Shown in pieces: positions 430-3,992 of a DNA stretch of 33,469 bases. Position 1 is the stretch's first letter. Each line of letters starts with the position of its first letter. The stretch spans positions 1 through 33,469 of the forward strand of contig JAIEDJ010000304.1 of NCBI GenBank assembly GCA_029068025.1, written 5' to 3'. This DNA comes from Oscillospiraceae bacterium (GTDB lineage: Bacteria; Bacillota; Clostridia; Oscillospirales; Ruminococcaceae). The notes below the pieces were generated by a model that did not search any database, was not told where the DNA came from, and saw only the letters and a list, made by a program, of their open reading frames with translations. The translations under genes were made by a program, and so were the position numbers.

Positions 430-1686
430 TCAGTACGCTTCCCAGCTGTTAAGATACTTTTCCTGATCGGGGTTGAGCTTGTCTATACGGATCCCCCACG
501 CGTTCAGCTTGCGCTCGGCTACCTTTCTGTCGATAGTCTTGGGAACGTTGACGGTCATACGCTCGCCGCCCTTGAGGTTGTCCGAGTTCTTCGCGATGTA
601 CTCTGCCGACAGCGCCTGAATAGCAAAGCTCATATCCATGATCTCCGCGGGATGTCCGTCTCCCGCCGCCAGATTTACAAGTCTGCCCTCGGCAATAACG
701 AACACGGTCTTTCCGTTGCTCAGCTTGTAGCCCATGATGTTGTTGCGCGCCGTGTAGCTTTCAACGGCGATCTCGCGGAGCTTAGCCATGTTGACCTCAA
801 CGTCGAAATGCCCCGCGTTGCAGCAGATAGCGCCGTCCTTCATGTTCATAAACGCGTTTTCGCCGATAACATCCGCGCAGCCCGTCACAGTAACGAAGAA
901 ATCTCCGACCGCCGCTGCCTCGTTCATCGGCATTACCTTAAATCCGTCCATGACCGCTTCCATAGCCTTGATAGGATCTATCTCGGTAACGATGACCTCC
1001 GCTCCCAGACCCTTCGCGCGCATGGCAACGCCCTTGCCGCACCAGCCGTAGCCCGCGACAACAACGTTCTTTCCCGCGACGATAAGATTCGTCGTGCGGT
1101 TGATGCCGTCCCAGACAGACTGACCGGTTCCGTAGCGGTTATCAAACAAATGCTTGCAGTCCGCGTCATTTACCAGCACCATCGGGAACTTCAGCGCCTT
1201 TGCTCTGTCCATCGCCAGCAGACGGATAATTCCCGTTGTCGTCTCCTCGCAGCCGCCGAGAACGTTCGGGATAAGATCCGTGCGCTCGTTATGGATCAGG
1301 TTCACCAGATCGCCGCCGTCGTCAATGATGATATTCGGGCCGCAGTCGATGACCTTTGAAATATGGCGGTGGTATTCCTCATCGGTGGAGTTGTACCACG
1401 CGAACACGTTCAGTCCGTCGTGAACGAGCGCCGCCGCAACGTCGTCCTGAGTCGACAGCGGATTGCTGCCTGTAACGTACATCTCCGCGCCGCCCGCTGC
1501 CAGCACCTTGCACAGATACGCTGTCTTTGCCTCAAGATGTACCGACAGTGCCACCTTCAATCCCTTGAACGGCTTTTCGGCCGCAAATTCCTTCTCGATA
1601 CCATTCAGCAGCGGCATATTGCGCTTTACCCATTCGATCTTGCGCGCTCCGCTCTCCCACAGCTTTTCATCACGAATCTCACTCAT
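430..1686 (-). CDS. ahcY: S-adenosylhomocysteine hydrolase (adenosylhomocysteinase)
   Basis: This cytosolic enzyme reversibly splits S-adenosylhomocysteine into adenosine and homocysteine, using tightly bound NAD, and so relieves inhibition of methyltransferases. Family signatures are clear: SVHLEAKTAYL (49-59), TGSNPLSTQDDVAAAL (72-87), IDDGGDL (121-127), EETTTG (147-152), the catalytic lysine and aspartate in K178/FDN (181-183), the NAD site GYGWCGKG (212-219), and a C-terminal EKYLNSWEAY tail that closes the cofactor pocket. At 418 aa it is the shorter form common in archaea and anaerobic bacteria. The start is ATG at 1686 with AGGAGG upstream. The receiver gene follows after 5 bases. The SOD-like gene ends 63 bases upstream, with no obvious terminator between them. 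Confidence 0.97.
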   Translation of the reverse strand: MSEIRDEKLWESGARKIEWVKRNMPLLNGIEKEFAAEKPFKGLKVALSVHLEAKTAYLCKVLAAGGAEMYVTGSNPLSTQDDVAAALVHDGLNVFAWYNSTDEEYHRHISKVIDCGPNIIIDDGGDLVNLIHNERTDLIPNVLGGCEETTTGIIRLLAMDRAKALKFPMVLVNDADCKHLFDNRYGTGQSVWDGINRTTNLIVAGKNVVVAGYGWCGKGVAMRAKGLGAEVIVTEIDPIKAMEAVMDGFKVMPMNEAAAVGDFFVTVTGCADVIGENAFMNMKDGAICCNAGHFDVEVNMAKLREIAVESYTARNNIMGYKLSNGKTVFVIAEGRLVNLAAGDGHPAEIMDMSFAIQALSAEYIAKNSDNLKGGERMTVNVPKTIDRKVAERKLNAWGIRIDKLNPDQEKYLNSWEAY

Positions 1687-1749: not shown

Positions 1750-2142
1750 TCACAGCACACGCTGAAACAATCCGCAGGCAACAGTGATCTCATCGCCGTT
1801 TGACTTAAGGTGCAGTACGATCGGTCTGCCGGCGATCTGCGTATGATCCGCTCGGTCAAGATAGATCTGAGCGGACGCGTTTCCTGTTCCGTCCGAAAAA
1901 ACGTCCGGCAGCAAAAGGATCTTCTCGCCCTTGTTCTCGCATAGCAGGCCCTCGTGAACATGAAACGCGAAGTCGCTGTTTATCGGCATATTTTCAAAAT
2001 CGCCCTGCAAATAGAGCCCGTCGGGCAGCGCGTAAGCATACACCTTTCCCCTGATATCGGGGTATTCCTCTCCGCCGCGAAGCTCAGCCTCCAGCACCGG
2101 TCTGTCCTGTTCAATAAAAGCGTAATCTGTTACATTTTCCAT
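1750..2142 (-). CDS. Cu/Zn superoxide dismutase-like protein lacking the zinc loop
   Basis: This 130-residue protein follows the plan of the small superoxide dismutase family proteins of clostridia. It has an early YPDIRGKVYAY strand, the copper-ligand motif FAFHVHEG, a late FSDGTGNASAQIYL strand, the IAGRPIVLH histidine and a terminal VACG that matches the IACG of SODs. The segment that normally lies between the FHVHE motif and the next strand carries the bridging and zinc histidines (HYNP...H...H..D type). Here it is replaced by a short stretch without histidine. Three of the four copper-ligand positions therefore remain and the zinc site is gone. I use ATG 2142 because GAGAGGTG precedes it; the longer frame would start with TTG at 2178 and has no such site. 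No signal peptide is seen. Activity as a dismutase is doubtful. Confidence 0.7.
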   Translation of the reverse strand: MENVTDYAFIEQDRPVLEAELRGGEEYPDIRGKVYAYALPDGLYLQGDFENMPINSDFAFHVHEGLLCENKGEKILLLPDVFSDGTGNASAQIYLDRADHTQIAGRPIVLHLKSNGDEITVACGLFQRVL

Positions 2143-2143
2143 A

Positions 2144-2176
2144 GAATATACACCTCTCTTCAAGAGAAGTATATTC
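2144..2176 (-). promoter_or_regulatory. Hairpin hiding the ribosome site of the SOD-like gene
   Basis: On the minus strand GAATATAC and GTATATTC pair over 8 bp. The interior continues with CTCT/AGAG pairing around a GAA loop. The 3' arm contains the Shine-Dalgarno GAGAGGTG, and the start codon follows immediately. This resembles an A/U-rich translational switch or RNA thermometer. The structure is seen in the sequence; any switching is inference. Confidence 0.5.
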
Positions 2177-2270: not shown

Positions 2271-3107
2271 TCACTTTCGTATAAACAGCACCCCGAGCGT
2301 GTCCTCGCCGCAGTGACACGCCACCGTGCAGCCCGCGTCGGTCGCCGCGATCTCCGAGAAGCTCTTGTACTTCGCGATCTCGGCGGCGGCGTGATCGGTG
2401 TTCTCCTTGGATGTGGTATGCGTGATAAAGATCAGATCCTCGTCCACATCCACGCCTGTCAGTCTGTCCTTCACATAATCATTGATGGTCTTTTCGATAC
2501 TGCCGCGGTACTTCTTGATAACCTTCATCTTGCCGTCAATAACAGCGATACACGGCTTAAGCTTCAAAAGATTCGCTCCCAGCGCCGCGATGGACGAGCA
2601 GCGCCCGCCCTTGTGGAGATACTCCACATTAGCAACGAAGAATGTCGCGTCCACCTTGGGAATGATCTCCCCGAGAGCGGTGACGATCTCATCGGCGGAC
2701 AGTCCCTTTGCCGCCAGCTTAGCCGCCGAAACGGCGACCAGACCCTCGCCCGTGGAAAGATTCCTCGAATCCACCACCCTGACGTTCGGGAAGTCCTCCG
2801 CCGCGATCACCGCGTTCTGATACGTGCTGGAGAAATCCGAGCTGATCGTGATCAGCACAAGCTCATCGCACTCCTTGAGCTGCTCGGTGAAAAACCTTGT
2901 GAAATCGTCGATATTTACCGCCGCCGTTGAGCACAGCTTTCCGGTAGACCGATAATGCTCGAACACGTCCTTCTGTGTGATCTCAACGCCGTCCTTGAGC
3001 GTTTCGCCGCCCTTGTTCACATACAGCGGAACAACACTGATATCATACCTCTTCTTCAATTCCTCGGACAGATCGCAAACGCTGTCCGCACATATCTTGA
3101 CTTTCAT
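2271..3107 (-). CDS. DegV family fatty-acid-binding protein
   Basis: DegV/FakB-type proteins bind a fatty acid and, in Firmicutes with FakA, present it for phosphorylation. This 278-residue protein has the typical start MKVKICADSVCDLS, the early VPLYV strand, the CSTAAVNIDDF segment, the SSDFSSTYQNA loop that holds the fatty-acid carboxylate in the family, and the VDSRNLSTGEGL motif. ATG 3107 is chosen over the upstream in-frame codon at 3155 because AAGGAGG lies just before it. That ribosome site abuts the end of the repeat element at 3128-3232. The gene lies downstream of the 3323-3952 gene on the same strand, separated by 215 bases of repeats. No fakA is in view, so the partner kinase must be elsewhere. 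Confidence 0.93.
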   Translation of the reverse strand: MKVKICADSVCDLSEELKKRYDISVVPLYVNKGGETLKDGVEITQKDVFEHYRSTGKLCSTAAVNIDDFTRFFTEQLKECDELVLITISSDFSSTYQNAVIAAEDFPNVRVVDSRNLSTGEGLVAVSAAKLAAKGLSADEIVTALGEIIPKVDATFFVANVEYLHKGGRCSSIAALGANLLKLKPCIAVIDGKMKVIKKYRGSIEKTINDYVKDRLTGVDVDEDLIFITHTTSKENTDHAAAEIAKYKSFSEIAATDAGCTVACHCGEDTLGVLFIRK

Positions 3108-3247: not shown

Positions 3248-3326
3248 GTTGCTCTTGGCATAAGATCCTTTGCTGCGTATTTTAAGCGTTGATCTTGGCT
3301 TAATGCGCGCAATACTTGTTCGTCAC
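3248..3326 (-). repeat. Two direct repeats (40 and 39 bp) beside element A
   Basis: Units start GTTGCTCTTGGC (3248) and GTTGATCTTGGC (3288); the second ends CGTCAC at 3326. Only about the first 12 bases and the last few are shared. The second unit covers the stop codon of the gene at 3323-3952. Confidence 0.65.
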
Positions 3327-3952
3327 GCCTGTGCCGAGAGCGATTCCAGCAGGCGCTCCAGTTCTTCTTCAAGCGAGCTGTAAAACAGCGTGAACAGTAT
3401 ATCGCAGCTCCCCAGCAAAAAAAGATTCCTGTTGCTGATAGACGCGAGTGCGGGAACATATCCGTAAACATAACCCTTGAACCACTCCGCGTCATAGGCG
3501 GGCACACCTCTGCCCATCTTCACCATGCGGCGCACTTCCTCAAAATCGTCCGCGATGACGTTTTCGTAGTTTCCCGCGCCCTTCGCGACCACCATGTCGT
3601 ATATCGCCTTGATCTGCTTGTCGTTCAGCGTGCCGCCGCGTGTTTTCACGCTCTTAAGCTCCGGCAGCCGCACCGCGAACGAATACACCATAAGCGACAG
3701 CACACGCTCATATTCGGGAGAATTCATCTCCTTGCAGCGTTCCTTGTCCAGCTTGATACCCGTGTTGAACAGGCTGGTGGTGTCGGTAATGTTTTTGAGA
3801 GAGATCTTGAAAATGTCCTTTACGTTTATGTTGTAGAAATCCTTATCTGCGATCATGTAGATATATTTTACTGCGTTAAACAAGGAAACTCCTGCCTTTA
3901 CTACGGTATCCGAGATCATTGTAAAGGCGGTTCGTTCGCTGATAAACTCCAT
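3323..3952 (-). CDS. Unknown helical protein
   Basis: I do not recognise this 209-residue protein. It is rich in predicted helices, with a hydrophobic patch near residues 10-35 (TMISDTVVKAGVSLFNAV) and another near the C terminus (NLFLLGSCDILFTLFYSS), followed by an acidic amphipathic tail (SLEEELERLLESL). Neither hydrophobic stretch is long or uniform enough to call a membrane helix with confidence, and there is no signal peptide. ATG 3952 is preferred over ATG 3967 because GGAGG lies 8 bases before it, while the first ATG has no ribosome site. It has its own strong promoter (3993-4021), divergent from that of nadE, and its stop codon lies inside the direct-repeat array that leads to degV. 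Confidence 0.7.
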   Translation of the reverse strand: MEFISERTAFTMISDTVVKAGVSLFNAVKYIYMIADKDFYNINVKDIFKISLKNITDTTSLFNTGIKLDKERCKEMNSPEYERVLSLMVYSFAVRLPELKSVKTRGGTLNDKQIKAIYDMVVAKGAGNYENVIADDFEEVRRMVKMGRGVPAYDAEWFKGYVYGYVPALASISNRNLFLLGSCDILFTLFYSSLEEELERLLESLSAQA

Positions 3953-3992
3953 AGCTGTGTCCTCCATAAAGATGTAAAAAAGCCCTTACTTT

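Follow-up and report, generated by a model that had tools for sequence, protein, structure and literature searches.

What becomes of a copper-zinc superoxide dismutase (SOD) that has lost the loops around its active site? The question is raised by a gene in a 33,469-nucleotide stretch of DNA from an Oscillospiraceae bacterium (the window). The gene encodes a single-domain protein of 130 amino acids (Table 1), which has no match in Pfam or NCBIfam, including Sod_Cu (PF00080), and no significant match among the sequences in PDB. The original prediction described an SOD-like protein without a zinc site, and the alignments, the predicted fold, and the family of orthologues all bear this out.

The AlphaFold model is an eight-stranded barrel (pLDDT 89.1). 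Because this model is confident and the nearest structures in PDB are of human SOD1 (top Foldseek matches, E ~1e-6), the predicted fold is that of the Cu/Zn-SOD beta-barrel. Among the matches listed, the highest query TM-score was for domain II of the copper chaperone CCS (TMq 0.78, rmsd 2.0 Å). A profile built from the orthologues matches Cu/Zn SODs (best E 2e-5), and 23 of the 27 orthologues of similar length match PF00080 in Pfam with E values of 1 or less (best 2.2e-5).

TABLE 1 Features at the SOD-like locus in the window
Feature	Position	Strand	Basis or conservation
ahcY, S-adenosylhomocysteine hydrolase, conserved neighbor	430..1686	-	TIGR00936, 592 bits; synteny
Loop-stripped SOD-family protein, 130 aa	1750..2142	-	ATG at 2142; ORF 1753-2142, stop 1750-1752
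Cys123, equivalent of SOD1 disulfide C146	1774..1776	-	27/27 short forms
Residues 112-122, comprising a shortened electrostatic loop (loop VII) and the first part of strand 8	1777..1809	-	Alignments
His111, equivalent of SOD1 Cu ligand H120	1810..1812	-	26/27 short forms
Lys74, at the beginning of strand 5; clade B, a sister clade, has His here	1921..1923	-	Alignments
What is left of the zinc loop (loop IV), ENKGE (5 residues; ~27-30 in full forms)	1924..1938	-	Alignments
Cys68, equivalent of SOD1 disulfide C57	1939..1941	-	26/27 short forms
His63, equivalent of SOD1 Cu ligand H48	1954..1956	-	27/27 short forms
His61, equivalent of SOD1 Cu ligand H46	1960..1962	-	27/27 short forms
Shine-Dalgarno-like GAGAGGTG, just 5' of the SOD-like gene	2151..2158	-	Sequence
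TATACT, -10-like hexamer	2168-2173	-	Sequence
DegV-family protein, upstream neighbor in many members	2271..3107	-	PF02645; synteny
Conserved 214-aa protein, locus landmark	3323..3967	-	No Pfam or NCBIfam family; synteny

The protein keeps three of the four copper ligands, as had been predicted from its FHVHE and late HL histidines and its terminal CG: it contains FAFHVHEG (H61 and H63), VLHLK (H111), and ACG (C123). The other disulfide cysteine, C68, lies five residues past H63, so both cysteines of a putative disulfide are present. The loop with the bridging and zinc histidines is indeed gone. We looked between C68 and LPD for anything like the stretch GGHLS...C..HPYHAGDLPP, which carries these residues, and found nothing similar, as ENKGE is all that separates C68 from K74. 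The alignments identified none of the zinc ligands (H71, H80, and D83 in SOD1). They also did not place a fourth copper histidine elsewhere in the protein: K74 is not one, and the sole other histidine, H100, is not conserved. The losses extend beyond those in the original prediction, since the electrostatic loop (loop VII) is shortened and the position of the catalytic arginine is lost.

The ORF is unlikely to be a product of chance, and its architecture is not due to a frameshift or a pseudogene: no frameshift restores the loop, and we found 27 orthologues with the same architecture in intact frames and with low dN/dS. These short forms (125-135 amino acids, 39-63% identical to the window protein) occur in 27 of the 43 genomes of the genus that we surveyed. 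Ten other genomes contain a full-loop orthologue (157-163 amino acids, given the start codons that we chose) with every copper and zinc ligand; one, G336, contains a ligand-less form; and five have no clear member at the locus. The close relatives are metagenome-assembled genomes labeled as uncultured Clostridia or Oscillospiraceae.

Genes of both forms occupy the same place in the chromosome. At the 18 loci from the genus that we compared, a gene of either form is flanked by ahcY and by the gene for a 214-amino-acid protein, often with degV, although two of these loci are on short contigs so that the landmarks are only partly visible. Further copies from a scan of contigs have the same landmarks. 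The short form adjoins ahcY at every locus that we checked, and no such adjacency was seen near the SOD genes that we fetched from outside the genus. Thus, synteny with the full-ligand form rules out a separate paralogue. The original prediction had listed an inactive paralogue as an option, which is not right as to descent, since synteny makes the window protein orthologous to an SOD-family protein that has its full set of ligands in sister species. Canonical SOD paralogues do exist in G299, G313, G328, and G336, and those that we placed in a tree group with the outgroup.

The 214-amino-acid protein is 53-92% identical in relatives and is near the locus in nearly all of them. In clade B, a sister clade of short forms described below, the SOD-like gene (L065-L068) points the other way with respect to ahcY and to the gene for the 214-amino-acid protein, without any change of position. 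Full-loop orthologues at this locus (L045, L051-L057, and L059) have an extra pair of cysteines within the zinc loop (for instance, GGHLSLCPEGTWCGRHPYHAGD), which is possibly a second disulfide or a metal site. The orthologue at the same locus in G336 (L044, G336:C3:44180-44527) is strongly diverged and lacks FHxH, which is now YSVSDGG, as well as both disulfide cysteines; G336 also encodes a separate canonical Cu/Zn SOD (L049). Upstream of the gene, elements like the Shine-Dalgarno-like and -10-like sequences of Table 1 precede most of the orthologues. In both the full and the short forms, the TATAAT-like hexamer is about 20-30 bases 5' of the start codon, which suggests that the gene is transcribed from a promoter of its own and that the leader is very short.

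Because the outgroup SODs have the zinc loop and the short proteins are monophyletic, the short form is derived, most simply with a single origin. When the loop columns were left out, the tree united all 27 short proteins in one clade (support of 100/99) and the outgroup in another; with the loop columns and the diverged G336 protein included, the support for the short group is 97/92. The zinc loop is present in the outgroup SODs that we read, which come from the same family, order, and class. We did not find the short form outside of the genus among the matches that we examined from 394 order-level and 391 class-level genomes and among the matches listed from a scan of contigs, which include part of the weak matches. 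One candidate from this search, L189 in G926, looked short but was rejected because it retains HYNP...HPRHRGD. Another SOD-family protein, L018 from a different genus (G100:C103:9225-9431), has HIFEG, without H48, and VAIDYN, without H120, and its ACG is replaced by IAAG; this is apparently a separate loss of ligands with the zinc loop kept. A search of plasmids gave a single match, at 27% identity, to an annotated SOD-family protein, and a search of PHROGs gave none.

The short form is under purifying selection: pairwise dN/dS (NG86) is 0.03-0.23 for short forms versus 0.13-0.33 for full forms. To judge by which columns are retained, what is being preserved is something that relies on the conserved cysteines and histidines. 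Among positions that are fixed in the full forms, H46, H48, C57, and C146 are kept in 17 of 17 short forms and H120 in 16 of 17, while H71, the zinc aspartate (D83), the QPxGNSG segment, and R143 are lost. In particular, the equivalent of Arg143 is absent from all 17 of the short forms compared, the bridging position of the window protein holds lysine or a gap, and loop VII is about 8 residues shorter than in the full forms. The short forms have gained an aspartate after LP and a C-terminal arginine. Ranked by relative entropy across 127 columns, C123, C68, H61, H63, and H111 are 1st, 2nd, 3rd, 4th, and 6th; this measure favors rare residues, but all five are also invariant or nearly so. In four members, the only three histidines in the whole protein are those at the copper ligands. 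There are two exceptions within the short clade: the equivalent of His120 is asparagine in L025, and the equivalent of Cys57 is tyrosine in L038.

The short forms differ at position 74. In clade B, which comprises the short forms of nine genomes (L004, L005, L034, and L037-L042), the short loop reads C/Y..AG[GE]H[LF][LF][ED][FL]PD, with small variations, so that H74 is followed by E77 or D77. The other short forms have lysine at this position (17 of 18) or, in the remaining one, valine. MAFFT and 52 of 60 pairwise alignments (six members against the full forms of the genus) pair the clade B histidine with the bridging histidine (H63 of SOD1); when aligned by HMMER to SodC of E. coli, position 74 pairs with the zinc ligand H80 and the next acid pairs with D83 (GHLGDLP). 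The window protein has lysine at 74 whether this position corresponds to H63 or to H80, so its count of three copper ligands stands. If H74 is the bridging histidine, then clade B could have a four-histidine copper site. The original prediction had stated that copper-only SODs keep all four copper ligands, which agrees with a review of these proteins (PMC13017621). This 2026 review places open-site copper-only SODs only in fungi, oomycetes, and animals. We give roughly one chance in four to a reading in which the loss of loops IV and VII made a cytosolic Cu(I)-binding barrel, and in which a side branch, clade B, with its fourth histidine and acidic residue in the short loop, works as an open-site copper-only SOD in the bacterial cytosol.

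What might the window protein do? Because a form without the loops has been maintained across one genus, it has probably taken on a role different from that of a superoxide dismutase, perhaps as a small copper-binding protein. In our preferred reading, to which we give about an even chance, a barrel of the SOD family lost its two active-site loops a single time, at a constant place in the chromosome beside ahcY within one Clostridia (Oscillospiraceae-labeled) genus, and became a buffer or carrier of Cu(I) in the cytosol rather than a fast SOD. The computation shows the architecture, and the role is inferred from it. Of the options in the original prediction, a metal carrier and a new variant are the ones that we favor. 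The protein would be cytosolic, as a hydropathy check found no hydrophobic N-terminal segment that could be a signal peptide, and fast dismutation of superoxide would be lost. In reduced SOD, Cu(I) is trigonal planar and the bond from copper to His63 is broken (PMC3439438). We favor the binding of Cu(I) without SOD activity because the three other ligands remain, while copper-only SODs retain the bridging histidine. One Cu(I) might thus be held in an open trigonal His3 site, and the protein might buffer or carry copper in an anaerobic cytosol. The host handles copper, since its genome has a gene for a CsoR-family repressor next to one for a CopA-like ATPase that contains heavy-metal-associated domains; across the genus, no correlation was evident between the presence of CsoR and that of the short form. 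A more speculative idea is that the neighboring AhcY benefits: copper binds tightly to AhcY from other organisms and inhibits the enzyme (PMC8044520), and the link here is one of adjacency within one genus.

The conserved histidines could instead be structural. The strongest competitor to a Cu(I) carrier, with a probability only a little above one in four, is a metal-free pseudoenzyme, whose barrel is a scaffold for binding proteins, as in domain II of CCS or in viral SOD-like proteins that are inactive; its histidines would stabilize the fold. The top query TM-score for CCS domain II fits with this, and an inactive SOD-like protein from a poxvirus is among the best viral matches. The short forms have also acquired conserved residues at positions other than those of the classical ligands (D80 in 26 of 27 and R128 in 24 of 27), and the loss of FHxH at the same locus in G336, of the His120 equivalent in L025, and of C57 in L038 implies that copper binding is dispensable in some species. 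However, after the loops were lost, both cysteines and all three histidines still rank within the top six conserved positions, which seems to be more than a scaffold needs. We are more skeptical, at perhaps one chance in ten, that the window protein still dismutates superoxide, at an open copper site with three histidines, as a reduced relative of the copper-only SODs. Fungal copper-only SODs, which lack loop VII and zinc, do work at rates near the diffusion limit (PMC13017621), and most genomes of the genus have no other superoxide enzyme (an Fe/Mn SOD in 0 of 43 and a superoxide reductase domain in 2 of 43). But copper-only SODs keep the bridging histidine and E110/D113, where the window protein has K74 and L77, and it has no equivalent of Arg143; the sister clade with H74 and E77 or D77 is a better fit.

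A trigonal His3 site might also bind another metal in vivo, for instance Zn(II) or Fe(II). Zinc can fill the copper site of Cu/Zn SODs, at least in vitro, and copper is poorly available in the bacterial cytosol (PMC13017621), but no metal-specific regulator or transporter adjoins the SOD-like gene, and we rate this as slightly less probable than continued dismutase activity. Finally, a decaying gene without a function, or an artefact of assembly, could account for the lost loops, for the loss of single ligands in some species, and for the strong divergence of the G336 copy. This is very improbable given the low dN/dS, the conserved Shine-Dalgarno and -10-like elements, and the intact frames in 27 separate assemblies.

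The window protein resembles several known systems, each in part. It shares with the Cu/Zn SODs of PF00080 the eight-stranded barrel, the FHVH motif, the equivalent of H120, both disulfide cysteines, and, through full-ligand members, syntenic orthology, but it lacks the bridging histidine, the zinc ligands, and Arg143, its loop VII is shortened, and the PF00080 model misses it. Like the fungal copper-only SODs (such as SOD5 of C. albicans) and the CSRP domains of animals, it has no zinc site, an abbreviated electrostatic loop, a predicted open site, and the disulfide cysteines. However, the fungal proteins have four copper histidines and E110/D113, versus three histidines and no such acidic pair here, and both they and the CSRP domains are extracellular, whereas the hydropathy check found no secretion signal in the window protein. 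CCS domain II is also an SOD barrel without a full copper site, and the closest fold in PDB by query TM-score among the matches listed, but it keeps the zinc ligands and is part of a multidomain chaperone, in which an Atx1-like domain that binds copper is fused to the N-terminal side of the SOD domain; the window protein has no Atx1-like domain. YojM of Bacillus subtilis and the inactive poxvirus proteins are SOD folds with a disrupted copper site. YojM, from the Firmicutes, is reported to be unable to bind copper (PMC10432803), whereas the window protein keeps three copper histidines. The part of the literature that we covered describes no bacterial form that lost both loops and kept the three Cu(I) histidines, which is weak evidence that there is none.

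Another comparison is to human SOD1 itself, from which loops IV and VII were deleted in laboratories to study the barrel. One such engineered protein (PDB 4bd4) is an SOD barrel stripped of these two loops, as the short form is, and is among the matches listed for the clade B model; it is man-made and apo, while the short form is a natural counterpart under selection. The genus offers a natural series at one locus: a full-loop Cu/Zn form, a short form with a fourth histidine, a short form with three, and a ligand-less form. With this series, the effects of losing zinc, the bridging histidine, the electrostatic loop, and copper can be tested in small soluble proteins. The series also bears on the role of SOD-family proteins in the cytosol of presumed anaerobes, as most genomes in this genus show no other superoxide enzyme.
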